NCBI GenBank assembly: GCA_904374485.1
Contig: CAJFFX010000005.1
Coordinates: forward strand, 1 to 51,757
DNA length: 51,757 bases
Reading direction: 5' to 3'
Source: Candidatus Pseudoscillospira falkowii
Lineage (GTDB): Bacteria; Bacillota; Clostridia; Oscillospirales; Oscillospiraceae
The notes under the pieces are model-generated. The model did not search any database and was not told the DNA's origin. It worked only from the letters and a program-made list of their open reading frames with translations. The position numbers and the translations under genes were made by a program. The first letter of the stretch is position 1; each line of letters opens with the position of its first letter. Positions 440 to 12,406 of this stretch are shown piece by piece.

Positions 440-829
440 ATGGAAGTTTCAGGATTTCCCACCAGCAGCGACATTTATCTGGAAGTGGACGGGAAAAAGG
501 TGGCCGTGGTGCAGAGCTATACGGCCCGCGCCAGCAAGACCAGCCAGACGGTGGAGGCCTTCGGCGAGCGCGAGCCCGTGGCCATTATCCCCGGGCAGAA
601 TACCTACACGCTGCAGCTGCAGCGCCTGTACGCCACCGATGAGGCCATCAGCGACGGGCTGAATTTTTACGACCTGGAGGATTTTTCCCTGGTGATCTGC
701 AAGCCGGACCGCAAGGTCATCTACAGCGGCTGCCAGTGGAGCGATATCTCCGAAGAGGGGCAGATCGGCGCCATGGTGCTGGAAAGCGTCACGGTGCTGG
801 CGTCCAAGCGCATTGAGGTGACGGCCTGA
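440..829 (+). CDS. Tail tube protein (XkdM-like)
   Basis: The 129-residue product begins at ATG 440 after the ribosome site AGGAGGGAGC. It is a small, beta-rich, cysteine-poor protein with alternating polar and hydrophobic strands (for example residues 9-25 and 46-66) and ends in the strand VTVLASKRIEVTA. Size, secondary-structure pattern and place directly after the sheath match the inner tube protein of contractile tails, which polymerises as hexameric rings inside the sheath. Its stop codon overlaps the start of the next gene (TGATGG). No cleft for another function is visible; assignment rests on order and size rather than a diagnostic motif. Confidence 0.65.
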   Translation: MEVSGFPTSSDIYLEVDGKKVAVVQSYTARASKTSQTVEAFGEREPVAIIPGQNTYTLQLQRLYATDEAISDGLNFYDLEDFSLVICKPDRKVIYSGCQWSDISEEGQIGAMVLESVTVLASKRIEVTA

Positions 830-1182
830 TGGAGGAAGCGCTGCTGACCCTGTTGTACGGAAAGCGCGAAAGGCCCTTCTGTCTGCGGGGCGAAACGGTG
901 ACGATGACGTTGCTGCCGGCGGCGCAGCTCCTGGAGCTGCGCGCCGCATGCGCCGGTGAAGGGGACGCCTTTGTCCGGGCGCTGCGCATGGGCGCGGATC
1001 TTGTGGCCAGGTGCCTTCAAAAGGACGGCGCGCCGCTGTTTGAAAACGGCAGGGCGGTTCTGGAGGCGCTTTCGGCTGAGGAGATCAACGGCGCCGTGGC
1101 GGCCTATGAAGCCTGGAGCCGGGAAGCGGACCCGGGCTTTGACAGCGCCGGGGAGGAGATCCAGGCGCTAAAAAAAGACTGA
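829..1182 (+). CDS. Tail assembly chaperone, short form (gpG-like, XkdN position)
   Basis: The product has 117 residues, is mainly helical and acidic, and sits between the tube gene and the place where a tape-measure gene is expected. In long-tailed phages this slot holds a chaperone made in two lengths by ribosomal frameshifting. The start ATG 829 overlaps the tube stop codon. The reading frame ends QALKKD-stop, and the last lysine codons form the slippery run A AAA AAA at 1170-1176. A -1 slip there enters a frame that stays open to 1475 and adds 99 residues. Chaperone identity is inferred from the frameshift architecture and gene order. Confidence 0.7.
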   Translation: MEEALLTLLYGKRERPFCLRGETVTMTLLPAAQLLELRAACAGEGDAFVRALRMGADLVARCLQKDGAPLFENGRAVLEALSAEEINGAVAAYEAWSREADPGFDSAGEEIQALKKD

Positions 1183-1218
1183 AGCACGCGCCGGAAGAAC
1201 GGCTGCGGTGGCGCGTGC
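1170..1218 (+). promoter_or_regulatory. Programmed -1 ribosomal frameshift signal (slippery heptamer plus stem-loop)
   Basis: Zero-frame codons are cta aaa aaa gac tga. The heptamer A AAA AAA occupies 1170-1176, followed by G. After a 7-nt spacer (1177-1183) the 9-base arm GCACGCGCC (1184-1192) is perfectly complementary to GGCGCGTGC (1210-1218), leaving a 17-nt loop. Spacing and stem stability match known stimulators. The -1 frame has no stop between 1176 and 1473. Confidence 0.88.
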
Positions 1219-1475
1219 TGAAGGCGTTTCACGTGCTGCCCGGCGAGGAGCGGGCGGCGCGGATGAGCCGGCGCGACTACCTCTACTGCGCGGTGCAGCA
1301 GTGGCTGGACGAAGAGGAGACGCTGGAGGGACTGTGCCCGGCGTGCCGCGCGCGGGCGATGCAGCGGCGCTGCACCGTGTGCGGCGCGCCCCTTCCGGCG
1401 GAGGAGAGAACGGAAAATACGGCGTTTGATATGGAACGTTATCGCAGACTGAAAAAGGGGAGCGCACAGAAATGA
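1176..1475 (+). CDS. Tail assembly chaperone, frameshift extension (gpT-like part of a 215-aa fusion)
   Basis: This frame encodes 99 residues and is best read as the C-terminal part of an 829-1475 fusion of about 215 residues made by a -1 slip at 1176. An internal GTG at 1215 exists but has no ribosome site, which argues against independent translation. The extension carries a zinc-finger-like pattern, CPAC then CTVC with eight residues between the pairs. It also has a helical YLYCAVQQWL segment. In known phages the long form binds the tape measure during tail assembly. The last four bases overlap the next gene (ATGA at 1472). Confidence 0.75.
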   Translation, partial: RLKHAPEERLRWRVLKAFHVLPGEERAARMSRRDYLYCAVQQWLDEEETLEGLCPACRARAMQRRCTVCGAPLPAEERTENTAFDMERYRRLKKGSAQK

Positions 1476-2053
1476 AGTATTGGAAAGCGTTGGAAAACCG
1501 CAGCATCACTCTCTGGCAGGCCCTGTTTGCGCCGCGGCGCGGCGCGGAGGGCAGGCCGGTTGACATAGAGTCTGCGCCGTCCCCGGCGGGGGCGGCGCAG
1601 GAGACGCCGGAGGAACGGGGCGGGCAGGCGTCCGCCTCCGCCGGCGGCATAGCAGAAAACGCCGCCGGACGGAAACGTCCGGCGGCAGAAGCGGCGGCGC
1701 AGGCGGACAGCGAAGCGGCAGCCCGGCGGGCGGAAGCGGCGCGGCAGACGGAAAAGACGGCGCGGAAAGAGACGGCCGCTTTTGCGGCGCCCCTTCCGGC
1801 GGCGGAAGGACGGCAGGCAGCAGCGCCTGCCCCGGTTCATGCCGAAAGCGGCGCGGCGGACTTGTGGGCACAGCTGCGCCGGGCGGGGCACAGCGCCGCC
1901 TTTGCCGCCTCCGCCGCGGCCCAGCCGGCGCCGCCGCGGCAGGGGCCGGCCCTGCCGGAGGAACCGGCGGCCCGCATGGCGGGCGCCGCGGACTGGTCGA
2001 CCTATTTTGAGCAGGATGCCCGCCGCTACGACGGCGGCCATCCGCTGTATTGA
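1472..2053 (+). CDS. Ala/Pro/Arg-rich low-complexity protein in the tape-measure position
   Basis: The product has 193 residues. After an ordered start (MKYWKALENRSITLWQALF) it becomes alanine-, glutamate- and arginine-rich with no recognisable domain until a more ordered end containing YFEQDARRYDG. The gene overlaps the chaperone frame by four bases and is followed by the LysM-protein gene, exactly where PBSX-type modules carry a tape-measure gene of about 1000 codons or more. At 193 residues it would specify a very short tail if it were a tape measure. It may instead be a linker or adaptor with the true tape measure absent or elsewhere. I do not recognise the family; it is real coding sequence judging from tight coupling and the ribosome site GGGGAGCGCAC. 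Confidence 0.6.
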   Translation: MKYWKALENRSITLWQALFAPRRGAEGRPVDIESAPSPAGAAQETPEERGGQASASAGGIAENAAGRKRPAAEAAAQADSEAAARRAEAARQTEKTARKETAAFAAPLPAAEGRQAAAPAPVHAESGAADLWAQLRRAGHSAAFAASAAAQPAPPRQGPALPEEPAARMAGAADWSTYFEQDARRYDGGHPLY

Positions 2054-2064
2054 GGAGGGAGTAT

Positions 2065-2670
2065 ATGGCGATTTTACAGCCGATGCGCTATAAGGATTAC
2101 GTCTGGCCCCATAACCCCGAGACCTATACCATCACCTACCGCCGCCGGGTGGGGATGTACGACATCCCCTACGGCCTGTATGCCATGGAAAGCCTGGGGC
2201 GGACCTGCCGGGTGATGACGGGCAGCGGAGAATTCGTGGGGCCGGACGCTTACGAGGAATTCAAGCGCCTGGCCACGGTTTACTACACCGGCGGCGAGGG
2301 CATTCTGGTCCACCCCTGCTGGCAGTCGGCCCATGTGCTGTTCACGGCCCTGTCCCTGCGGCAGGAGCCCAGGCCGGACTATGTGGCCTATACCTTCGAG
2401 TTTCGGGAACTGTACGACGGCTACGACACGGAGCTGAAGGAGGTGGACGCCGCCGCTGCTGCCGCCGGCAGCGGCAGCAGCGGCGGCGCGGCTGCAGCGG
2501 CTGCAGCGGCGGACAGCGCCGTGCCCCGCTATGTCGTGGTGTGCCGGGGCGACAGCCTGTGGGCCATCGCCCGCAGCAGCGGCTCGACGGTGGAGCAGCT
2601 GCTGGCGCTGAACCCGTCCATCAAAAACCCCAACCTGATCTATGCCGGGCAGAAAGTGCGGGTGGCGTGA
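2065..2670 (+). CDS. LysM-domain tail protein (XkdP-like)
   Basis: The start ATG 2065 follows GAGGAGGGA with good spacing; an in-frame ATG at 2050 lies upstream but lacks this site. The 201-residue product has an N-terminal domain of about 125 residues (MAILQPMRYKDYVWPHNPET start), a flexible linker of Ala, Gly and Ser repeats (about residues 130-150), and a C-terminal LysM domain (YVVVCRGDSLWAIARSSG to AGQKVRVA, about residues 154-201). LysM binds peptidoglycan. In PBSX-type tails the equivalent protein lies between the tape measure and the hub and probably sits at the tail tip. The stop overlaps the next start (TGATG). Confidence 0.85.
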   Translation: MAILQPMRYKDYVWPHNPETYTITYRRRVGMYDIPYGLYAMESLGRTCRVMTGSGEFVGPDAYEEFKRLATVYYTGGEGILVHPCWQSAHVLFTALSLRQEPRPDYVAYTFEFRELYDGYDTELKEVDAAAAAAGSGSSGGAAAAAAAADSAVPRYVVVCRGDSLWAIARSSGSTVEQLLALNPSIKNPNLIYAGQKVRVA

Positions 2671-3614
2671 TGCAGGCGGCGGTGGAGATCTACGGCGGCG
2701 GGACCTATGTCCTGCCGCTGCTTCTGAGCTGGTCGGTGACGCTGACCGGCGGCGTGCCCTGCGACAGCTTCTACCTGACCTGCCCCTACGGCAGCGGCAT
2801 GGCCGAGGCTATGGAGCGGGCGTGGCGGATGACGCTGACGGAAGGCGAGGTGTCGCTGCGGGCGACGGTGGACGAATACGAGATCGCCCAGGACAGCCGG
2901 GGGCGCATCATGACCGTGTCCGGCCGGGGGCTGATGGCGCTGCTGCTGGACAACGAGGCCGAGGCGGTGGAGTACGACGCGCCGCTGCTGTCGGAACTTT
3001 TGCGCAACCACGCCGCGCCCTGCGGCCTTTCCTGGCAGGAGCCGGCGGCGCTGCGGGGCACGGCCCGCTACGCCGTGGCCAGCGGGTCCAGCCAGTGGAA
3101 GGCCATCAGCGGTTTTACCAATTATTTCGGCGGCTTTATACCCCGGATCACCCCCGGCGGCGTGCTGCAGCCCTTTCCCTGGAAGGACAGCGGCCGGCGG
3201 CGCGTGATCGGCGCAAATACGCCGCTGATGGAACTGCGCTGGCGGGAAAAACGCTACGGCGTGTATTCCGAGGTGCTGGTGGTGGACAAGGTGCGCCGCA
3301 CGGCGGAGCGGGTAAAAAACAGCCGCATGGACCGCTGCGGCGGCAGCTGCCGCAAGGTGGTCTATACCCCGGGGCGCTCCACGGCCACGGCCATGCGCTA
3401 TACGGGGACCTATCAGATCGCGGAATCGGAAAAAGGTGCGCGGCTCCTGACGGCGGTGCTGCCGGGGCGCTTTTTGACGCTGCCGGGCGGGGTGGTGCGC
3501 ATGGAGCGCGGCGACATCGGCATCTCAGGGGATTTTTATGTGGAGGAAACGACCCTGGAGGCAGACGATCAGGGAAGAAAAACAACTTTGACCATGAGGA
3601 GGCTGGAGGAATGA
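2670..3614 (+). CDS. Tail hub protein (XkdQ / gpD-like)
   Basis: The 314-residue product starts at ATG 2670, overlapping the LysM-protein stop. It begins with beta strands typical of hub proteins and has a middle stretch with RGLMALLLDNEAEAVEY, similar in type to hubs of the gp27/gpD family, which form the trimeric platform that joins tube and spike. No peptidase or lysozyme motif is visible, so it looks structural only. It is followed by a spike gene with a 4-base ATGA overlap. Function is inferred from order and overall fold type; sequence resemblance is moderate. Confidence 0.7.
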   Translation: MQAAVEIYGGGTYVLPLLLSWSVTLTGGVPCDSFYLTCPYGSGMAEAMERAWRMTLTEGEVSLRATVDEYEIAQDSRGRIMTVSGRGLMALLLDNEAEAVEYDAPLLSELLRNHAAPCGLSWQEPAALRGTARYAVASGSSQWKAISGFTNYFGGFIPRITPGGVLQPFPWKDSGRRRVIGANTPLMELRWREKRYGVYSEVLVVDKVRRTAERVKNSRMDRCGGSCRKVVYTPGRSTATAMRYTGTYQIAESEKGARLLTAVLPGRFLTLPGGVVRMERGDIGISGDFYVEETTLEADDQGRKTTLTMRRLEE

Positions 3615-4021
3615 TGTGGCTATCAAGACGGCTGCGGGAAAGCGCGGCGGGGGAAGAGACCGCCGCCGACCTGGGCGTGACGACCATCGGCGGCGAGCGG
3701 GCCGGGGTGTACACCCGCGGCGAAGTGCGGGACCTGGCATTGTGTACGCCGGGGGGCCTGCTCTGGCGGCCCAAAAGCGGCGACCGGGTGGTGGTGCTCA
3801 AGGGCGGCCCTGGCGGCGAGGAGGCCTTTGTTCTGGGCACGGAGGACGAAACGGCCGCCGACCTGGCCGACGGGGAGCTCCGCCTGTATGCCGACGGGGC
3901 GTCGGTCACGCTGAGAAACGACGGCACCGTGTCCATCAGCGGCAGCCTGATCATCAACGGCGAGGCGTACAAGCCCTGCACCTGCGACACCGCCGTCGGT
4001 GCGGAGACAGGGGGTGTGTGA
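3611..4021 (+). CDS. Baseplate spike protein (phage baseplate V / gp45-like)
   Basis: The product has 136 residues. The N-terminal half (GVTTIGGERAGVYTRGEVRD, LLWRPKSGDRVVVLKG) has the OB-fold pattern of gpV/gp45-type spikes. It is followed by short repeating beta strands (LRLYADGASVTLRNDGTVSI) expected for the triple-stranded needle. The C-terminal CTCD could hold an ion at the tip. It would be the membrane-piercing point under the hub. Start ATG 3611 overlaps the hub stop; ATG 3614 is a close alternative. An XkdR (DUF2577) name would also fit this gene order. Confidence 0.7.
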   Translation: MMWLSRRLRESAAGEETAADLGVTTIGGERAGVYTRGEVRDLALCTPGGLLWRPKSGDRVVVLKGGPGGEEAFVLGTEDETAADLADGELRLYADGASVTLRNDGTVSISGSLIINGEAYKPCTCDTAVGAETGGV

Positions 4022-4022
4022 G

Positions 4023-4373
4023 ATGGAGCTGAAGATCAAAAACGGCGATTATGTGCTTTGTGCCGACGGTACCCAGCAGCGGCTGGAGGGCAGCGCAGAA
4101 CTGCTGCAGCGGGTGCTGTATAAGCTGACGGCCCGGCGGGAGGGGTTCCCCTTCATCCCGGAGCTGGGCAGCGAACTGTACCGCCTGGGCCGCACCGCCG
4201 CCCGGGAGCGCGGCAGCGCCGCCGAGCAGGCCGTGCGCGAAGCACTGAGCGACGAGACGGATCTGGAGATCACGGCGGTGACGCTGACGGACGCCGGCGA
4301 GGGGCTCTATACCCTGCAGGTATGCCTGACGTATCAGGGGCAGTCCTTGGACGTGACGCTGACCATTCAATGA
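4023..4373 (+). CDS. gp25-like/DUF2634 baseplate wedge protein (XkdS-like)
   Basis: The 116-residue product contains the segment GFPFIPELGSELYRL (about residues 40-54), the typical part of the gp25/gpW family where the wedge protein contacts the sheath initiation ring. It starts one base after the spike stop codon and is followed after 13 bases by the baseplate J gene, the usual pairing in all contractile tails. The C-terminal half forms beta strands ending SLDVTLTIQ. Function is in baseplate assembly and sheath nucleation. Confidence 0.8.
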   Translation: MELKIKNGDYVLCADGTQQRLEGSAELLQRVLYKLTARREGFPFIPELGSELYRLGRTAARERGSAAEQAVREALSDETDLEITAVTLTDAGEGLYTLQVCLTYQGQSLDVTLTIQ

Positions 4374-4386
4374 GAGGAGAGAGAGC

Positions 4387-5433
4387 GTGAAAACAGTGGA
4401 TGCGATTTACCAGGAGATGCTGGCGGATTTCTGCGCCCGCATCGGCCGGGACGTGTCGGGCGGCTGCGATCTGGCGGCGCGGCTGTACGCCGCGGCGGCC
4501 CAGGTCCAGGCGCTGTATGCCCAGACGGAGTGGCTGGAGCGGCAGTGCTTTCCCCAGACGGCCCAGGGGGAGCATCTGGACGACCACGCCCAGATGCGGG
4601 GCCTTGCGCGCCGGAGCGCGGTCAAGGCCGCGGGCGTCATCCGCTTTTCCGTGCGCACGGCGCCGGAGGAGGCGCTGGCGATCCCTGCGGGGACGGTGTG
4701 CGTCAACACCCTGGGCGTGCGCTATGAAACGACGGAGGACGGCCAGATCGCTGCCGGCGCGCTGTATGCGGATGTGCCGGGGCAGGCCGTGGAGGCCGGT
4801 GCGGCAGGCAACAGCCTGGCGGACACCATCCTGTCCATGTCCGTGCCGCCGGCGGGCATCGTGAGCTGTACGAACCCCGCCGCCTTCACCGGCGGCGAGG
4901 ACGCCGAGAGCGACGAGGACCTGCGCGCGCGGATCCTGGACAGCTACCGCCGCCTGCCCAACGGGGCCAACGCGGCTTTTTACGAGAGCCAGGCCCTGCT
5001 GCATCCCGGCGTGGCGGCGGCCCAGGCCGTGGGGCGTGCCCGTGGTATCGGCACCGTGGACGTGTACGTGGCCACCACGGCGGGGGTGCCGGACACGACG
5101 CTGCTCCAGGAGATCGAGACGGACCTGGAGCAGAAGCGGGAGATCGCCGTGGACCTGCGGGTGAAAGCGCCGACCACGGTGAGCGTGGCGGTGACGGCGG
5201 AGCTGGAAGCGGCGGATTATGCCGCCGCCAGCGCGGCGGTTCAGACGGCCCTGCAGGGGTATTTTACCGGCGAGCGCCTGGGCAAGGCGGTGCTGCTCTC
5301 GGAGCTGCACGCCCTGCTGCACCAGGTGGAGGGGCTGGAGAATTACCACATCCTGGCCCCGGCAGCGGATGTGGCCGCTGCAGTGGGCACGCTGCCGGTG
5401 CTGGGCCAGGTGCAGCTTAGCGCCATGACGTGA
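4387..5433 (+). CDS. Baseplate J-like protein (XkdT-like)
   Basis: The 348-residue product starts with GTG 4387 after GAGAGGAGAGA. It shows the baseplate J family course: a helical N-terminus with HLDDHAQMRGLAR, the strand region AIPAGTVCVNTLGVRYET, and the conserved block FTGGEDAESDEDLRARIL followed by PNGANAAFYESQAL (about residues 166-200). The protein forms the inner wedge of the baseplate. Length agrees with PBSX XkdT and P2 gpJ relatives. It is translated between the gp25-like and the DUF2313-like genes as in PBSX. Confidence 0.88.
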   Translation: MKTVDAIYQEMLADFCARIGRDVSGGCDLAARLYAAAAQVQALYAQTEWLERQCFPQTAQGEHLDDHAQMRGLARRSAVKAAGVIRFSVRTAPEEALAIPAGTVCVNTLGVRYETTEDGQIAAGALYADVPGQAVEAGAAGNSLADTILSMSVPPAGIVSCTNPAAFTGGEDAESDEDLRARILDSYRRLPNGANAAFYESQALLHPGVAAAQAVGRARGIGTVDVYVATTAGVPDTTLLQEIETDLEQKREIAVDLRVKAPTTVSVAVTAELEAADYAAASAAVQTALQGYFTGERLGKAVLLSELHALLHQVEGLENYHILAPAADVAAAVGTLPVLGQVQLSAMT

Positions 5434-5446
5434 GGGGGTGCGGGTT

Positions 5447-6013
5447 ATGGGATATGCGCAATATCTGAGAGATCTGCTGGAGCCCCTGGGGATTTATACC
5501 TTTACCGATGGCAGCGTCAGCGGCGGCGCAGTGGAAGCGGCCGGCGCGGCGCTGGACGGCGTTTCGGCGGCGCTGGAAGAGGCGGAGCGGGAGGCACTGG
5601 TGCCCACGGCGGAGGACTGGGGCCTTGCGCAGCTGGAGGACCTGTTCGCAAAACACCCGGTCTCCCCCACCCTGGAACTGCGCCGGGCGGCGCTGTGCGC
5701 CCTGCTGCAGATCGGCGGGGACGACTTCACCGTGGAAGCCATCAACCGCGCCCTCAGCGGCTGCGGCATCAAGGCGGAAGTGGCGGAGCTGGAGGAGACG
5801 GGCTGCGTGCGCGTCACCTTTCCCGACACCGCCGGCGTGCCTGAGGGCTTTGACCAGATCGCGGGGATCATTCTCGATATCATCCCCTGCCATTTGGAAA
5901 CAGAGTTCTATTTCCGCTATCTGACCTGGGTGGAGCTGGAAGCGCGCTTCCCCACCTGGGCGGACATCGAAGCGGAGGCGTACACCTGGGAGGAGCTGGA
6001 GCTGGCGGTGTAG
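5447..6013 (+). CDS. DUF2313-like baseplate protein (XkdU / YmfQ-like)
   Basis: The start ATG 5447 is preceded by GAGGGGGTGCGGGTT. The 188-residue product begins YAQYLRDLLEPLGIY and ends YTWEELELAV. It has a helical N-terminal half with LVPTAEDWGLAQLEDLF and a C-terminal region with CHLETEFYFRYLTWVELE, matching the pattern of the tail protein that follows baseplate J in PBSX. It is the last gene of the module; a strong terminator follows 20 bases later, and no tail fibre, holin or lysin gene is found to the right. Confidence 0.78.
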   Translation: MGYAQYLRDLLEPLGIYTFTDGSVSGGAVEAAGAALDGVSAALEEAEREALVPTAEDWGLAQLEDLFAKHPVSPTLELRRAALCALLQIGGDDFTVEAINRALSGCGIKAEVAELEETGCVRVTFPDTAGVPEGFDQIAGIILDIIPCHLETEFYFRYLTWVELEARFPTWADIEAEAYTWEELELAV

Positions 6014-6032
6014 CCGGCGAAAGCAAAAAAAT

Positions 6033-6062
6033 GTCCCGACCAATTTGGTCGGGACTTTTTTT
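6033..6062. terminator. Bidirectional intrinsic terminator
   Basis: GTCCCGACCAA and TTGGTCGGGAC form an 11-bp stem (6033-6055), flanked by seven A (6025-6031) and seven T (6056-6062). It closes the tail module on the plus strand and serves the convergent small membrane-protein gene on the minus strand. Confidence 0.93.
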
Positions 6063-6439: not shown

Positions 6440-7051
6440 TCAGAAGCCCAGCGCTTCGCCGATCAGCACCACTTCGGTCTCCATGGAGTTCAGCGGCTCC
6501 CAGAGCACCACGAGGCCCCGGCAGATGCGCTCGGGGCTGCTGCAGTCGTAGCATTTGTCGCCGCGGGCGGCGCAGGGGGTGTTCTTGTGCAGGCGCTGGG
6601 CGTTTTTGGGGCTGGCGATATTGCGGGCGCGCCACAGGGCGGCGTCGTAGTCCGGCGCGATCTTGTTGACGCCGGCGACGAGGTAGAGCTTTTTGTGACC
6701 GTAGAGCGTGGAGGCCACGCGGTTGCCGGTGCCGTCGATATTGAGGAGCTCGCCGGTCTCGGCGATGGCGTTGACGGAGGAAAGGTATACGTCGGCCCCG
6801 GCGGCCTTGGCATAGAGTTCCTCCCGGGGCACGGAGCCGTCGTTGTACCACTGCCAATATACGGTGTTGTGGCGGCTCAGCCGCTCGTATACGCCCATAT
6901 CGTGGAGCGTGACCGAGCCGCCGAAGCCCACGGTCTGGCCGTCGATGGCATGGTCGAGGTAATCGGCGGCCTCGGCGGCCGTTTCAAAATAGGTGACCGC
7001 AAAGCCGCGGCTCTTCATGTTTTGGATGGTTTTTTCCACAGATGGGTTCAT
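6440..7051 (-). CDS. LUD-domain protein (lactate utilisation LutC/B-like)
   Basis: The 203-residue product is a stand-alone LUD domain: an N-terminal helix, the glycine motif TVGFGGSVTLHDMGVY (about residues 40-55), the central VYLSSVNAIAETGELLNIDGTGNR segment, and LVAGVNKIAPDYDAAL. A cysteine group, CAARGDKCYDC (about residues 160-170), lies near the C-terminus. LUD proteins occur in the LutABC lactate oxidation complex, but single-domain forms are common in Clostridia without LutA or LutB, and no partner is nearby, so the substrate is unknown. The start ATG 7051 has a GAAAGG site and a promoter upstream. Confidence 0.88.
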   Translation of the reverse strand: MNPSVEKTIQNMKSRGFAVTYFETAAEAADYLDHAIDGQTVGFGGSVTLHDMGVYERLSRHNTVYWQWYNDGSVPREELYAKAAGADVYLSSVNAIAETGELLNIDGTGNRVASTLYGHKKLYLVAGVNKIAPDYDAALWRARNIASPKNAQRLHKNTPCAARGDKCYDCSSPERICRGLVVLWEPLNSMETEVVLIGEALGF

Positions 7052-7086
7052 AAAAAGCGCCCCTTTCCATCAGATCAGATATATTC

Positions 7087-7115
7087 AGTATAGCAGTCCC
7101 TGCCTGTTCGCGCAA
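7087..7115 (-). promoter_or_regulatory. Candidate promoter for the LUD gene
   Basis: On the minus strand TTGCGC (7115-7110), 17-base spacer, TATACT (7092-7087). The -10 box is good and the -35 box partial; it lies about 36 bases upstream of the ATG. Confidence 0.6.
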
Positions 7116-7126
7116 GGAAAAATGCG

Positions 7127-7162
7127 GTGCTCCCGTCCTCTGGCACCGGGGGACGGGAGCAC
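7127..7162. terminator. Terminator of the ABC efflux operon
   Basis: GTGCTCCCGTCC (7127-7138) pairs with GGACGGGAGCAC (7151-7162). In the leftward direction it is followed by CGCATTTTT, in the rightward direction by GATTTTT. It lies just downstream of the adaptor gene. Confidence 0.8.
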
Positions 7163-7170
7163 GATTTTTC

Positions 7171-8613
7171 TTACGATGCGGGCAGAAGCACCACGTCGCC
7201 CTCTTCGAGACCTTCGAGGATCTCGGTGTAGCCGCCGCCGGAGATGCCGGTCTTGACGCTTACCTCCTCTGTCTTTCCGCCGCGCTGCACCTGGACGACG
7301 CCGCCGCTGACGGCCTCGCTGGGAACGCGCAGGCAGCGCTCCCGCGCTCCGGTGACGATGGAGACCCACACGTTCATACCCGAGCGCAGGCCGTCGGTGT
7401 CGTCCAGCGTCAGCTCCACGGTGTAATTGGTCACGCCGCCGCTGGTGACGCCGGCCTGGCTGATGCGGCGCACGGAGGCGCTGTATTCGCGGCTCTGGCC
7501 GCTGTCGTCGGTAAAGGAGACGGTGGCGTCCTGGCCGGTAAAGAGCTTGTCGATATAGATCTCGTCCACGGAGACCTCCACGCCCAGGGAATTTTCCTCG
7601 GCCAGAGTGGCCAGGGGCGTGGCGGCGGAGGCAAAGTCGCCTTCCCGGGCGGTGCGGGTGAGGATGATGCCGTCGGCCGGGGCGCGGAGCACATAGTCCT
7701 CCCGGCGGGCGATGAGCTGGTCCAGTGCCACTTCGGCGTTTTCCACGGCGATGGCGGCGCTGTCCCGGCTTCCCGTCAGGGAGTCGTTTTCGATGGTCAT
7801 GATCGCCTCGCCCACGGAGACAGCGCTGCCGGTGTCGATGGCCAGGGAGGTCACCTGGCCGGACTGGGTGGCATAGAGCGTCTGGGACGTGGCGGCCTGA
7901 GCCTGGCCGTTTTCCATGCAGGCGGCGCTGCCGATGCGGGCCGAGGCGGTCTCACCGCCGGCCAGGGCGCCGGGATTTTTGAAGGAGATCTCCACATAGA
8001 CGCCTTCCCGGCCGCCGCTCAGGGCGGAGGGCGTGTCGTATACCCGCGCCACGGTGCCGCTGACGCTGCCGGAGTAGGACAGGAAGATGATTTCCGCCGC
8101 CGCGCCGGGGGTGATGCGCGCCGCCTCATCCGGGGAGAAAGGCACGGTCAGCGTCATGGCGGTACGGTCCGTGATCTCGGCGATGGGGGTGCCGGCGCTG
8201 ACGAAGTCGCCCTTGTGGAGGTACAGCGTCGTCACGGTGCCGGAGGCCTCGGCGCGGACGGTCAGGTCGGCGCAGGCCGAAGCGGCCTGGTCATAGCTCT
8301 GCCGGGCGCTTTTCAGGGACACCTCCGCCTGATCGATCTGGTCCTCCAGGTCCGAGGCGTCCAGCTCGTAGAGGATATCGCCCTCCTGCACGGCGTCGCC
8401 CTCTTCAAAATGGCAGGCGGTGATCTTTGCGCTGACGAGGGCGTAAATGGAGTAGGGGTCCCGATGGACGACGGTGCCGCTGTCCTCCACCAGGGATTCA
8501 ATGCTGCCGTATTCCGCGGCGGCGGTCGGCGCGCCGCTTTGTTTCTGGCAGCCCGCCGCGCCCAGCAGTACCGCCAGGGCCAGGGGGAGCACGAGATAAT
8601 GCTTTCTTTTCAT
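7171..8613 (-). CDS. Lipoprotein efflux adaptor (HlyD/MacA-like membrane fusion protein)
   Basis: The start ATG 8613 gives MKRKHYLVLPLAL and a lipobox LLGAAGC, so the protein is exported and lipid-anchored; ATG 8631 is an in-frame alternative. The 480-residue product has two biotinyl-lipoyl-like halves (ALVSAKITACHFEEGDAVQEGDILYELD near residues 55-85, and RAPADGIILTRTAREGDF) around a helical hairpin, followed by beta-barrel and membrane-proximal domains (VSVKTGISGGGYTEILEGLEEGDVVLL at the end). A second, inserted lipoyl-like stretch makes it longer than MacA (about 370). It would connect the FtsX permease to the wall side for export of an unknown compound. It is the third gene of the leftward operon. 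Confidence 0.87.
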   Translation of the reverse strand: MKRKHYLVLPLALAVLLGAAGCQKQSGAPTAAAEYGSIESLVEDSGTVVHRDPYSIYALVSAKITACHFEEGDAVQEGDILYELDASDLEDQIDQAEVSLKSARQSYDQAASACADLTVRAEASGTVTTLYLHKGDFVSAGTPIAEITDRTAMTLTVPFSPDEAARITPGAAAEIIFLSYSGSVSGTVARVYDTPSALSGGREGVYVEISFKNPGALAGGETASARIGSAACMENGQAQAATSQTLYATQSGQVTSLAIDTGSAVSVGEAIMTIENDSLTGSRDSAAIAVENAEVALDQLIARREDYVLRAPADGIILTRTAREGDFASAATPLATLAEENSLGVEVSVDEIYIDKLFTGQDATVSFTDDSGQSREYSASVRRISQAGVTSGGVTNYTVELTLDDTDGLRSGMNVWVSIVTGARERCLRVPSEAVSGGVVQVQRGGKTEEVSVKTGISGGGYTEILEGLEEGDVVLLPAS

Positions 8614-8634
8614 CTTTTCACCTTCTGTCATGGG

Positions 8635-10947
8635 TCACTCCACGCTCTTCAGCGCGCCGAGCATATCGATGTCCTTCATTTTCCGGCCGATGACGAAATT
8701 CACCGCCAGGGTGAACAGCAGCGTCGTCAGGCAGGAGAGCAGGTAGGACAGGGGCTTTGTGGATACGGTCAGGGGCAGGTCCTTCAGGACCGCCACGAAA
8801 AAGTGGGTCAGAGCAAGGCCCGCCGGCAGACCCAGGATCATGCCGCCCACGGAGAAGATAATGTTCTCGCTCAGCTGCAGTACCCGGATCTCCCGGTCGT
8901 GGAAGCCCAGGACCATCAGCGTGGCCAGGGCGCGGATCTGTTCAAAGAAGCTCATGATGCCCAGGTTGTAGATGACGACGCAGGCCAGGCCGCCGCCGAA
9001 GAGGATCAGGATATACACCACCAGCGACGCGCTGGACAGGTTTTCCGCGGCGGCGTCAGTGGCGGCCTGGCGGGTCTGCCAGCTGCTGACGAAGTCGTAG
9101 CGGTCCAGCTCCGTTTCCAGGGCTGCCGGATCGTCGGCGCAGAGATAGGCGGCGGAGGGGGCGTATGCCTGCCCCATGGAGCGCCAGAGACTCCTGGAGA
9201 GATAGGCGCCGGACACGGTGCGCTCGATCGCGGAGACCTGCACGGGGTACAGTCGGGGATCGCCGCTGAAGCGCAGCGTCACGGTGTCGCCCTCGGAAAC
9301 GCCCAGGTCCTTGGCTGCGGCTTCCTCCAGCACGATGCCGTCCTCCGGCAGGGAGCGGACGGCGTCGGCGTAGGGATCGAAAAGCCGGAGGGCGGGCGTG
9401 TCCTCCGCCACGGTCAGTGCGGCGGTGGTCAGCTGATCCGCGGAATAGATCCAGCAGGCCGTGGACATCTCAAATTCCGCCGCCGTCACGCCGGGGACGT
9501 GGGCCAGGCGCTCCCACTGGTCCTGCTGCACGCCGGTGTTCAGGGAGACCATCAGGTCGTAGCGGTTCTGGTTGCGGGTCAGGGCGTCGGCATAGCGCAG
9601 GATGGAATCCCGCAGGCCGAAGGCCGTTACCACCAGGGCCATGCAGAAGGCGATGCCGATGATGCACGTGAGCATGCGGGCCTTATTGCGCAGGGTGTTG
9701 CGGATGATGTATTTCTGATTGAAGCTGAGACGCCGCCACAGGGGGCCGACGGCTTCGAGGAACACAGGCTTTGTATTTTTGGGCGGTTTGGGCCGCATAC
9801 AGGCGGCGGGGGACTCCTGGAGCAGCGAGCGGCTGACGAGATAGGCGCTGCCGACGCAGCACACCGCCGTCAGCACCAGGGCCTGGAGCCAGGAAGCGTA
9901 GTCGTTGGCGATGGTGAAGGGCGGCAGGTCGCAGCCGGTGGCCAGGGTGTCCACGATCAGGCGGATCAGCGGCACCGTGGGGGCAAGGCCCAGGGGGAAG
10001 CCCACCAGCACCACCAGCACGGCGTTCATCAGATAATAGAGCAGGATGGTGCCATCCTGATAGCCCAGGGCTTTGAAGGTGCCGATCTCCTGGCGGGCGC
10101 CCTCGATCAGGCGGCTCATATTGCTGACCATCAGCAAAATGGCGCACAGGAAGAACAGCATCGGGAACAGCCGCAGGATGGGCTGCAGGTCGTTTGTGGT
10201 GCCCTGGAAGGAATAGGCGGGCAGGTTGTCCTCCAGGGCGAGGATGTTGACCACCTTGTCGCCCAGGGCGCCGTCGATGCTGCGGCGCAGTTCCTCGTCG
10301 CTGCAGCTGCCGTCCACGGTCAGGCAGATCTGGTTGTAGCGGTTTTCTCCCATGAGCACCGCGGCGGCGGTGTCGCTGCAGTAGGCGAAGCCGTGGCGGG
10401 CCAGATCGGCGGAGGGAGTAGCGGCGTTGATATTGCGGATCAGTTCCGGACTTTTGACGAGGCCGCTGATCTGCAGATGGAGTTCGGCGCCGGAGGCGGG
10501 AAAGGTCATGTCGTACCAGTCGCCGACGGCCAGGCCGTTGGCCCGGGCGAACTCGTCGCTGACCACCATTTCCCGGTCGCTTTGGGGCAGGCTGCCGGCG
10601 ATGAGGTAGGGGGTGTTCATCTCATAGGTGTCCGGCACGGCGTAGAGAGCCAGGGTGATGGCGCTGTCACCCTTTTCCTGGACCTCCAGAGACACCCGGG
10701 GCTGCACGCCGGTGACGCCGGGCAGGGCCAGGAGGGTGCGGCAGTCGGCCCGGTCCAGATTCGTGCCGGTGATCCAGTAATCGGCCACGTTCTGCTCGGT
10801 ATAGTACTGGTCGCAGATCCGGCGGACATTGTAGGTGATGCCGCCCAGGGCGGCGTAAACGGTGACGGCGATGGCGGTGATGAGGATCACCGAGACCAGC
10901 CGGGGCAGGGTGCCCTTCAGCGCCCGCAGAAAATTCAGCCACAGCAT
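8635..10947 (-). CDS. ABC transporter permease, FtsX/MacB type
   Basis: The 770-residue product has an N-terminal membrane span (about residues 17-38), a long extracytoplasmic domain, three spans around residues 255-385, a short linker with the basic stretch PAACMRPKPPKNTKP, then a second half repeating the plan, with final spans in the last 150 residues. This duplicated FtsX arrangement is that of DUF214/BceB-like permeases with two FtsX cores. It lies between ATPase and adaptor genes with 4- and 21-base gaps, so all three are translated together. The substrate could be a peptide or other amphiphile; regulation by the divergent TetR gene supports drug-type efflux. Confidence 0.87.
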   Translation of the reverse strand: MLWLNFLRALKGTLPRLVSVILITAIAVTVYAALGGITYNVRRICDQYYTEQNVADYWITGTNLDRADCRTLLALPGVTGVQPRVSLEVQEKGDSAITLALYAVPDTYEMNTPYLIAGSLPQSDREMVVSDEFARANGLAVGDWYDMTFPASGAELHLQISGLVKSPELIRNINAATPSADLARHGFAYCSDTAAAVLMGENRYNQICLTVDGSCSDEELRRSIDGALGDKVVNILALEDNLPAYSFQGTTNDLQPILRLFPMLFFLCAILLMVSNMSRLIEGARQEIGTFKALGYQDGTILLYYLMNAVLVVLVGFPLGLAPTVPLIRLIVDTLATGCDLPPFTIANDYASWLQALVLTAVCCVGSAYLVSRSLLQESPAACMRPKPPKNTKPVFLEAVGPLWRRLSFNQKYIIRNTLRNKARMLTCIIGIAFCMALVVTAFGLRDSILRYADALTRNQNRYDLMVSLNTGVQQDQWERLAHVPGVTAAEFEMSTACWIYSADQLTTAALTVAEDTPALRLFDPYADAVRSLPEDGIVLEEAAAKDLGVSEGDTVTLRFSGDPRLYPVQVSAIERTVSGAYLSRSLWRSMGQAYAPSAAYLCADDPAALETELDRYDFVSSWQTRQAATDAAAENLSSASLVVYILILFGGGLACVVIYNLGIMSFFEQIRALATLMVLGFHDREIRVLQLSENIIFSVGGMILGLPAGLALTHFFVAVLKDLPLTVSTKPLSYLLSCLTTLLFTLAVNFVIGRKMKDIDMLGALKSVE

Positions 10948-10951
10948 CGCC

Positions 10952-11653
10952 TCACCACTCCAGTTCCTGCACGGGCACGGGAGCGGGATTTTCGGTGAAG
11001 GATTCGATCTTCCCGCTCTTCATGCGCATCAGCACGTCGGCGGTGGGGGCCAGGGCGCCGTTGTGGGTCACGACCACCACGGTCTTGCCGCTCTTGCGGC
11101 ACAGCTCGTACAGCAGCGCCAGGATGGCTTTGCCGGTTTTGTAGTCCAGCGCGCCGGTGGGCTCGTCGCACAGCAGAATATCCGGATTTTTGGCCAGGGC
11201 GCGGGCGATGGCGCCGCGCTGCTGTTCGCCGCCGGAGCACTGGGCGGGGAAATTGTACATCCGGTCCCCCAGGCCCACCATTTCCAGCACCTCTTTGGCG
11301 TCCAGGGGGTCTTTGCAGATCTGGCTGGCCAGTTCCACGTTTTCCAGCATATTGAGGTTGGCCATCAGGTTGTAGAACTGAAACACAAAGCCGATGCTGT
11401 TGCGGCGGTACTCCGTCAGCCTTCGCTTGTCGTAGCCGGAGATCTCCTGGCCCGCCACCCACAGCTTGCCGCCGGTGGGGGAGTCCATGCCGCCGATCAG
11501 ATTCAGCACCGTGGATTTGCCCGCGCCGCTGGCGCCGAGGATGATGGTGTATTTCCCCGGGGGGATGGCGAAGCTGATGTCGTCCACGGCGCGGATCACC
11601 GTTTCGCCCATTTGATAGCTGCGCGTCAGATGCTCTGCCCGGATCCCGTCCAT
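10952..11653 (-). CDS. ABC transporter ATP-binding protein (MacB/LolD type)
   Basis: The chosen start ATG 11653 gives [17 protein letters not shown] and is preceded by GAAGGGGGCGGCAGC. The reading frame stays open further upstream but runs through the promoter and the opposite TetR gene. The 233-residue product has Walker [10 protein letters not shown], the LSGGQ-equivalent CSGGEQQR, Walker [13 protein letters not shown] and the switch histidine in VVVVTHNG. These are the typical signatures of ATPases that pair with FtsX permeases. It is the first gene of the efflux operon. Confidence 0.95.
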
Positions 11654-11687
11654 GCTGCCGCCCCCTTCCGCAGATTTTTGTAGCTTA

Positions 11688-11716
11688 AGCATACCAATCC
11701 CGCCGGGAAAGTACAA
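11688..11716 (-). promoter_or_regulatory. Promoter of the ABC efflux operon
   Basis: Minus strand TTGTAC (11716-11711), 17-base spacer, TATGCT (11693-11688). It lies about 35 bases upstream of the ATPase start, inside the shared intergenic region with the TetR gene, where repression would occur. Confidence 0.6.
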
Positions 11717-11766
11717 CCGACACATTCCGGCCAGGTGTTTCAAAAGAGAAAAAATAAGACAAAGTG

Positions 11767-11795
11767 TTGTATTCACAGCCAAAAAGCGGTAAAAT
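11767..11795 (+). promoter_or_regulatory. Promoter of the TetR-family gene
   Basis: Plus strand TTGTAT (11767-11772), 17-base spacer, TAAAAT (11790-11795), about 60 bases before ATG 11855. The leader between is AT-rich. Confidence 0.6.
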
Positions 11796-11854
11796 ATTGC
11801 GTAGAATTTTTGGAAATTTATGAAAAATCGACAGAAATGGGAGGGAAAGCGGTC

Positions 11855-12406
11855 ATGGCGCGGCAGGAAAACCAGCGGGTGATGCTGACCCGGCGGCTGA
11901 TCCGGGAAGGCCTGATGGAGCTTTTGAAAACCGAGAGCATTCACAAGATCTCCGTGCGGGCCCTGTGTGAGGGGGCGGGCATCAACCGCTCCACGTTCTA
12001 TCGCTATTACGGCAGCCAGTACGACGTGCTCGCCGAAATGGAGGAGCAGGTGCTGGGAGATGTGGGGGCTTTGCTGCAGCAGGCGCCCAGCGCCACGGAC
12101 CGGGAGACCCTGGAGGCCATCTGCGCCTATTTCGAGCAGCACATGGACTCCGTCCGGGTGATGGTGAGCAACAATGTGGACCCGGAATTTCCCCGCAAAC
12201 TCTTCGGCATGCCCCAGGTGCGGGACATGATCCTGGCGCGCCTGGACCCGGCGGCGGACGCCGAGCAGCAGAACTATCTGTACATTTTCCTGGTCAACGG
12301 CGCCTATCATCTGGTGCGGGAGTGGATCGACAACGATCGCGGCCGCCCCTTCAAGGAGATCGCCTATCTTCTGGAGGACATCATCGACCGGCTGTGCCGC
12401 CCGTGA
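11855..12406 (+). CDS. TetR/AcrR-family transcriptional regulator
   Basis: The start ATG 11855 follows GGGAGGG; longer in-frame starts lie in AT-rich non-coding-like sequence. The 183-residue product has the TetR N-terminal helix-turn-helix (LIREGLMELLKTESIHKISV, then RALCEGAGINRSTFYRYYGS, about residues 10-50) and a C-terminal all-helical TetR_C-like domain (EWIDNDRGRPFKEIAYLLEDI near the end). It is divergent from the ABC efflux operon and separated from it by 201 bases, the typical layout for a repressor of that operon that responds to the exported compound. Confidence 0.92.
   Translation: MARQENQRVMLTRRLIREGLMELLKTESIHKISVRALCEGAGINRSTFYRYYGSQYDVLAEMEEQVLGDVGALLQQAPSATDRETLEAICAYFEQHMDSVRVMVSNNVDPEFPRKLFGMPQVRDMILARLDPAADAEQQNYLYIFLVNGAYHLVREWIDNDRGRPFKEIAYLLEDIIDRLCRP

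Follow-up and report, generated by a model that had tools for sequence, protein, structure and literature searches.

The window, by which is meant the whole 51,757-nucleotide stretch of the contig from Candidatus Pseudoscillospira falkowii that was analyzed, begins within a cluster of phage-like tail genes (Table 1). A tail assembly chaperone gene lies between the tube gene (440–829) and an ORF in the tape-measure position, the latter assigned by position only, and it is made up of two overlapping frames that meet at a run of seven adenines. The gpG/gpGT gene of phage lambda also sits between tube and tape measure.

Table 1. Tail genes and recoding features at the start of the window, in window coordinates.
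Feature	Position	Strand	Basis or remark
Tail sheath, C-terminal part, cut by contig start	2..427	+	Resembles the sheath ORF of loci L010 and L023 (by eye)
Tail tube gene (phrog_27038)	440..829	+	PHROG E 1.6e-63
Zero-frame chaperone, G-like, 117 aa	829..1182	+	AF2 fold predicted near 2OB9; weak Gp41_Mu, TAC_14 and phrog_344 matches
-1 frame ORF	1143..1475	+	From 1176, would form the C-terminal 99 residues of a 215-aa fusion; same domain in frame in 21 fusions
Internal Shine-Dalgarno-like GGAGGAG	1150..1157	+	~12–13 nt upstream of the site; could act as a stimulator
Slippery heptamer A AAA AAA	1170..1176	+	X XXY YYZ phase relative to the ATG 829 frame
Zero-frame stop TGA	1180..1182	+	Read in the sequence
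Putative stimulatory stem, 5′ arm	1183..1192	+	Co-variation, synonymous constraint
Putative stimulatory stem, 3′ arm	1210..1219	+	Co-variation, synonymous constraint
Zinc-ribbon part of -1 domain, CxxC...CxxC	1335..1382	+	Four Cys invariant in 41/41; DZR_2
ORF in tape-measure position, 193 aa	1472..2053	+	Position only; no family match
LysM tail/hub protein	2050..2670	+	LysM 6.6e-13
Baseplate hub	2646..3614	+	phrog_177 4e-21
Baseplate wedge	3999..4373	+	phrog_43 2.4e-5
Baseplate J	4387..5433	+	PF04865 1.1e-51
Mu gp48-like tail protein, last gene of the cluster	5438..6013	+	PF10076 1.2e-9

A search of genome contigs with the tube protein returned 22 loci, the titles of which name Oscillospiraceae, Clostridiales, or genera such as Pseudoflavonifractor, Flavonifractor, Oscillibacter, Intestinimonas and Evtepia. 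About a third of the family carries the tube (132 of 400 genomes, 95 of 245 of high quality and 48 of 106 genera), and 131 of the 132 carriers have a single copy. The locus set used below consists of the tube places other than those of genomes G102, G260 and G393 (3 of 133), together with the named loci, and comprises 153 loci, 140 of them distinct. In these relatives, the sheath, head-tail genes, capsid, protease, portal and terminase lie upstream of the tube, and LysM, hub, baseplate and gp48-like genes lie downstream, followed by chromosomal genes (assignments partly by eye). The sheath is present in 147 of the 153 loci, and all nine further genes sought were found in 72 of the 80 loci with >7.5 kb upstream. 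Terminase, portal, protease and capsid occur in every one of the 80 loci with enough upstream sequence, which rules out a head-less tailocin.

The cluster is compact, with a length of 11.2–13.2 kb (median 12.4, n = 72), and the median length of the ORF in the tape-measure position is 190 aa (90–277, n = 68). Tail length scales at ~0.15 nm per tape-measure residue, and a tape measure of 190 aa, if its assignment by position is right, implies a tail near 29 nm. PBSX of Bacillus subtilis likewise has contractile tail genes of the XkdM–XkdT kind in the host chromosome, with a tape-measure ORF far longer than that of the present cluster.

Within the chaperone gene, a sequence-only reading of the window had placed a slippery heptamer at 1170–1176 and a 7-base spacer after it, and both sets of coordinates are right (spacer 1177–1183). 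The 9-bp stem that it described (1184–1192 with 1210–1218) is perfectly paired but was drawn one pair short; A1183 and U1219 extend it to 10 bp. The 99 open codons claimed for the -1 frame past the site are borne out, up to a stop at 1473–1475. The window alone is weak to modest evidence for recoding, since A7 runs occur in it six times against an expected 1.84, and the first 60 nt past the site give a folding z of only -1.55 (13 of 200 shuffles were equally good). A Shine-Dalgarno-like stretch 7–17 nt ahead of the site was found in 39 of 56 A7 loci, versus 22% at other places in these genes. The stretch doubles as Glu-Glu codons, however, and is present in 9 of 21 in-frame fusions; an upstream stimulator of this kind is possible, with an enrichment that is confounded by the Glu-Glu coding.

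The first half of the gene appears to encode a chaperone of the HK97 type. Among solved structures, the predicted fold of its AlphaFold2 model (pLDDT 83) comes closest to 2OB9, the tail assembly chaperone of HK97 (Foldseek E 0.013, probability 1.00; VIA Z 9.7 over 95 residues at 3.1 Å), and to YqbN 3KLU (VIA Z 7.5), at sequence identities of 16% and 13%, respectively. Profile matches are weak (Gp41_Mu in 4 of 41 members, TAC_14 in 1, phrog_344 in 2); together with the predicted fold and the position after the tube gene, they agree with the chaperone identity first proposed from the letters alone. The second half is a helical and zinc-ribbon domain. DZR_2 matches it weakly in 40 of 41 members, the window's own copy falling below the Pfam cut-off, and a comparison of its fold with the PDB yielded no solved structure with a Z of at least 5. 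Among viral structures, the best matches to the first half are Gp181 (2.5e-5) and Gp182 (5.1e-5) of Bacillus phage G, and the second half, too, has Gp182 as its best viral match (E 0.037). A common ancestry of the two halves, raised by a MAFFT overlay, was not supported by a profile comparison, which gave a probability of 5.3% and aligned only the terminal motif. A short C-terminal motif, N..FD..RF, recurs in fusions and in first-half-only proteins, and is also seen near the N-terminus of some tape-measure-like ORFs; perhaps it is a docking peptide.

In phage lambda, as described in PMC5009743, ribosomes can shift into the -1 frame late in the first frame, giving a short form, gpG, and a fusion, gpGT; the arrangement is conserved in long-tailed phages, and tail assembly depends critically on the ratio of the two forms. 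The gene in the window would work in a similar manner. Most ribosomes would stop at TGA 1180 and release the 117-aa chaperone, while a minority would pause at the stem just past the site and slip back by one base, re-pairing from AAA AAA in the zero frame to AAA AAA in the -1 frame. Slipped ribosomes would then complete a 215-aa fusion that includes the helical and zinc-ribbon domain. If lambda (PMC5009743) is a guide, the short form may bind the tape measure, and the fusion may recruit tube subunits and so link the two.

The likeness to gpG/gpGT thus lies in where the -1 shift would take place, late in the first frame, and in a short form plus a fusion. Unlike lambda, the second domain here is a zinc ribbon, the stem co-varies across genera, the cluster appears to be inherited with the host, in-frame fusion or loss recurs among the relatives, and the ORF in the tape-measure position has only ~190 aa. 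Frameshifts of the G/GT kind are known from phages; less expected here is the setting. The cassette is also reminiscent of E. coli dnaX, with its A-rich heptamer, a stem just downstream and a possible upstream Shine-Dalgarno-like stretch, although the heptamer here is A AAA AAA followed by G, not A AAA AAG. In contrast to dnaX, the shift here would yield the longer product. A AAA AAA is less shift-prone than A AAA AAG in E. coli, according to PMC5009743, and this counts against a frameshift.

The comparison of relatives is decisive. In the 140 distinct loci, the gene after the tube has its second half in the -1 frame in 52 cases, is an in-frame fusion in 21, and encodes only the first half in 24; 28 others have only the second half or the end motif, and neither half was found in 15. 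Among the loci classed, the second half was never found in the +1 frame. A phased A AAA AAA lies inside the overlap in all 52 loci of the -1 class and in none of the 21 in-frame fusions. For instance, locus L009 keeps seven A's, but out of slippery phase, and has both halves in one frame and no stem left. The best 80 of 162 IMG/VR relatives were also examined (5 of the 80 are identical to loci of the genome set), and they comprise 30 of the -1 class, 27 with the first half only, 10 with the second half only, 4 with neither, 9 truncated and none fused. All 30 of the -1 class have the phased site, 4 of them being identical to genome loci. In total, 82 of 82 -1 relatives possess a phased slippery site, represented by A7 in 62, A9 in 14 and AAAAAAC in 6. 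Since the site is present in all -1 relatives and absent from the fusions, the gene very probably contains a true programmed -1 ribosomal frameshift of the G/GT type.

The stem co-varies among the relatives. In an alignment of 47 gap-free A7 sequences (45 distinct), pairing holds in 97.4% of the 495 cells for its 11 pairs, a level not reached in any of 500 shuffles (0/500). Both sides have changed in 23 cells, mostly from G-C to A-U at columns 22/48, and none of 500 shuffles reached the co-variation score. The pair at 22/48 is GC in 21 sequences, AU in 20 and GU in 4, and that at 23/47 is CG in 42 and UA in 2. Two pairs are invariant, and further pair types are no more numerous than in the shuffles, 97 of 500 of which reached as many. 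When the 55 nt past the site were folded, the median z was -3.85 in the 62 A7 loci (below -1.5 in 58 of them), versus +0.14 in the 21 fusions, which serve as a natural control for the role of the RNA stem.

Codon usage points in the same direction. Pairs of rows sharing an amino acid were compared (44 of the 47 -1 rows and 20 of the 21 fusion rows were used), and synonymous differences in the two stem arms were 0.178 and 0.251 in the -1 class versus 0.556 and 0.514 in the fusions. Past the stem, they were equal (0.458 versus 0.464). The constraint on the arms therefore acts on RNA and is confined to loci that have the frameshift. The most variable codon position after the site is the third of the -1 frame. 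Four lines of evidence thus support the -1 frameshift proposed in the sequence-only reading: the phase of the heptamer, the co-variation, the synonymous constraint and the homologues fused in frame. The refuting condition that it named for relatives, absence of the heptamer or stem, did not hold for the A7 loci; the A9 loci keep the run but have no comparable stem.

A different source of the second frame would be slippage of RNA polymerase, rather than the ribosome, on the run of A's. Most loci do have a homopolymer, and in genus g40 and related IMG/VR loci the run is exactly A9 in 14 of 14 (L066, L068, L069, L089, L102 and nine IMG/VR loci, such as L203), with the main-type stem lost and a median folding z of -0.19. 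However, the window and 61 other loci have A7, a co-varying stem 7 nt downstream and constrained codons, and the AAAAAAC of six loci shortens the run while keeping the heptamer. As a general explanation, polymerase slippage is therefore quite improbable. The A9 loci without a stem fit either a longer slippery run that lacks a stimulator or a move to transcriptional slippage, and a switch of recoding mechanism within one gene is possible there. The six AAAAAAC loci have a median z of -1.13 and, with the 14 A9 loci, make up the 20 of 82 -1 loci in which folding energy gives no clear main-type stem; because of this absence, another route may serve in those 20.

Marginally less probable again is that the -1 ORF is a separate gene translated from an internal start at GTG 1215 or ATG 1263. 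The claim that GTG 1215 is the sole internal start was mistaken, as the -1 frame holds seven (GTG 1215, 1233, 1293 and 1377; ATG 1263, 1359 and 1431), and GAGGAG lies 12–13 nt upstream of ATG 1263. Nevertheless, the motif KK.L..P..RL.WR ahead of GTG 1215 is conserved in the -1 frame and runs continuously from the first half in the 21 fusions, and from the last stop at 1140 to 1215 the window's -1 frame has no ATG, GTG or TTG. That the two frames stem from faulty assembly or from decay of a prophage gene is hardly credible: the source assembly consists of 99 contigs at 86% completeness, and homopolymer errors occur, but the reading is refuted by conservation of the arrangement in 82 loci of many genera, including isolates such as Flavonifractor plautii ATCC 29863 (L023), and by purifying selection throughout the cluster.

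The frameshift seems to have been lost repeatedly among the relatives compared here. On the unrooted element tree, 25 changes are needed for the five classes and 9 for -1 versus fusion, and genera g40, g45 and g65 each hold both of the latter. In some loci (for instance, L099, L104 and L106), the first-half chaperone domain continues in frame into the tape-measure-like ORF, and in others no chaperone was found. By eye, four loci (L150–L153) have a hub-like gene right after the tube and no detected chaperone or tape measure. Since the frameshift is missing from many relatives (21 fusions and 24, 28 and 15 other loci of 140), a fixed product ratio is not required everywhere. It is suggested that the demand for the ratio that phages need is weaker here, perhaps because the tail is so short. 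One gene can be traced through one host family as its frameshift is kept, fused away or lost, and gene callers ignorant of the frameshift would report it as two genes.

The history of the cluster largely follows that of its hosts. A host tree was built from RpoB alone, picked by phmmer, and it placed 18 of 19 multi-member genera together. For 65 genomes, the element and RpoB trees have 39 of 62 splits in common (name shuffling gave a mean of 0.27 and a maximum of 2), and of the 42 well-supported element splits, 35 are found in the RpoB tree and 4 conflict with it. The Mantel correlation for the same genomes is 0.70, with 0 of 999 permutations as high. In a larger element tree, 24 of 26 multi-member genera form single clades, the exceptions being g13 and g65. 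The g65 exception involves a second copy in G375 (L094) that is identical to the copy of G157 (L095), although these genomes belong to two genera; this identity is probably due to contamination of one assembly. Flanking genes are common within genera (39 of 85 pairs on the right, 48 of 61 on the left) and rarely shared across them (87 of 2996 and 113 of 1955, respectively). Median dN/dS values of seven cluster genes are 0.08–0.25, which signifies purifying selection. The tube is rare beyond the family: of 295 genomes from the order, 17 have it, and 10 of these 17 are family members. It occurs in only 2 of 50,697 phage records, both faecal contigs. Taken together, these comparisons argue for a domesticated, largely vertically inherited, phage-like head and contractile-tail cluster, with the caveat that host-specific phages could mimic part of the tree congruence.

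Alternatively, the cluster could be an ordinary prophage of the family, and its frameshift just another phage case. In favor of this reading, IMG/VR classes 162 relatives as virus, the flanks vary from genus to genus, the gene order is like that of Mu/PBSX-like myoviruses, and L010 has an extra ORF after the last cluster gene that, by eye, could be a fibre. Against it stand the single copy in nearly all carriers, a tree largely congruent with RpoB, the genus-level clades and the near-absence from phage records, and no integrase or serine recombinase (PF00589, PF00239) was among the matches listed within 20 kb in 10 genomes. The prophage reading is thus unlikely, though less so than either polymerase slippage or an internal start.

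The cluster is read here as a domesticated prophage and a candidate gene transfer agent (GTA) of the Oscillospiraceae. Tailed-phage head and tail genes and a terminase are present (the full set in the 72 of 80 loci noted above), and host inheritance and selection are indicated by tree congruence, genus clades and dN/dS, with RpoB as the only host marker and four well-supported conflicts. Because it seems to be inherited with the host genome, the cluster may be host equipment for DNA movement rather than a passing virus. In 2026, GTA-like packaging of host DNA was reported in the Oscillospiraceae, where Onthomonas sp. accounted for 3 of 25 events and no operon was known; the account in PMC12946183 describes a GTA operon for Faecalibacterium only and calls it most likely podovirus-like. 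A literature search on the present cluster or its frameshift found nothing. Inducible prophages of 37 and 42 kb have been reported for F. plautii YL31 (PMC8008629).

The Faecalibacterium element, FpGTA, resembles the present cluster in being a compact terminase-portal-capsid cluster of a gut clostridium (PMC12946183). As described there, it is probably podovirus-like and arranged in two operons, and is set apart by that description; unlike FpGTA, the present cluster has sheath, tube and baseplate genes in one cluster.

A broader reading, tentative and given slightly less than an even chance, is that the cluster is an ancient Oscillospiraceae GTA with a very short contractile tail and the missing source of the reported GTA-like packaging. 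Its chaperone ratio would be under evolutionary release, with A7 and a stem supporting ribosomal frameshifting in many genera, a stemless A9 (perhaps with polymerase slippage) in one genus, and in-frame fusion, chaperone–tape measure fusion or loss elsewhere. If a GTA, the cluster would produce contractile-tailed DNA-transfer particles in a large and common group of gut bacteria, from a locus open to deletion.

Some features of the window beyond the cluster were noted by eye. After its last gene, a two-way terminator-like sequence lies at 6025–6062, with A7 at 6025 on the + strand and at 6056 on the - strand. Further on (6440–12406), a LUD-like protein, an adaptor protein, an FtsX-like permease, an ATPase and a TetR-like regulator are encoded, of which the adaptor, permease and ATPase resemble an efflux ABC system.
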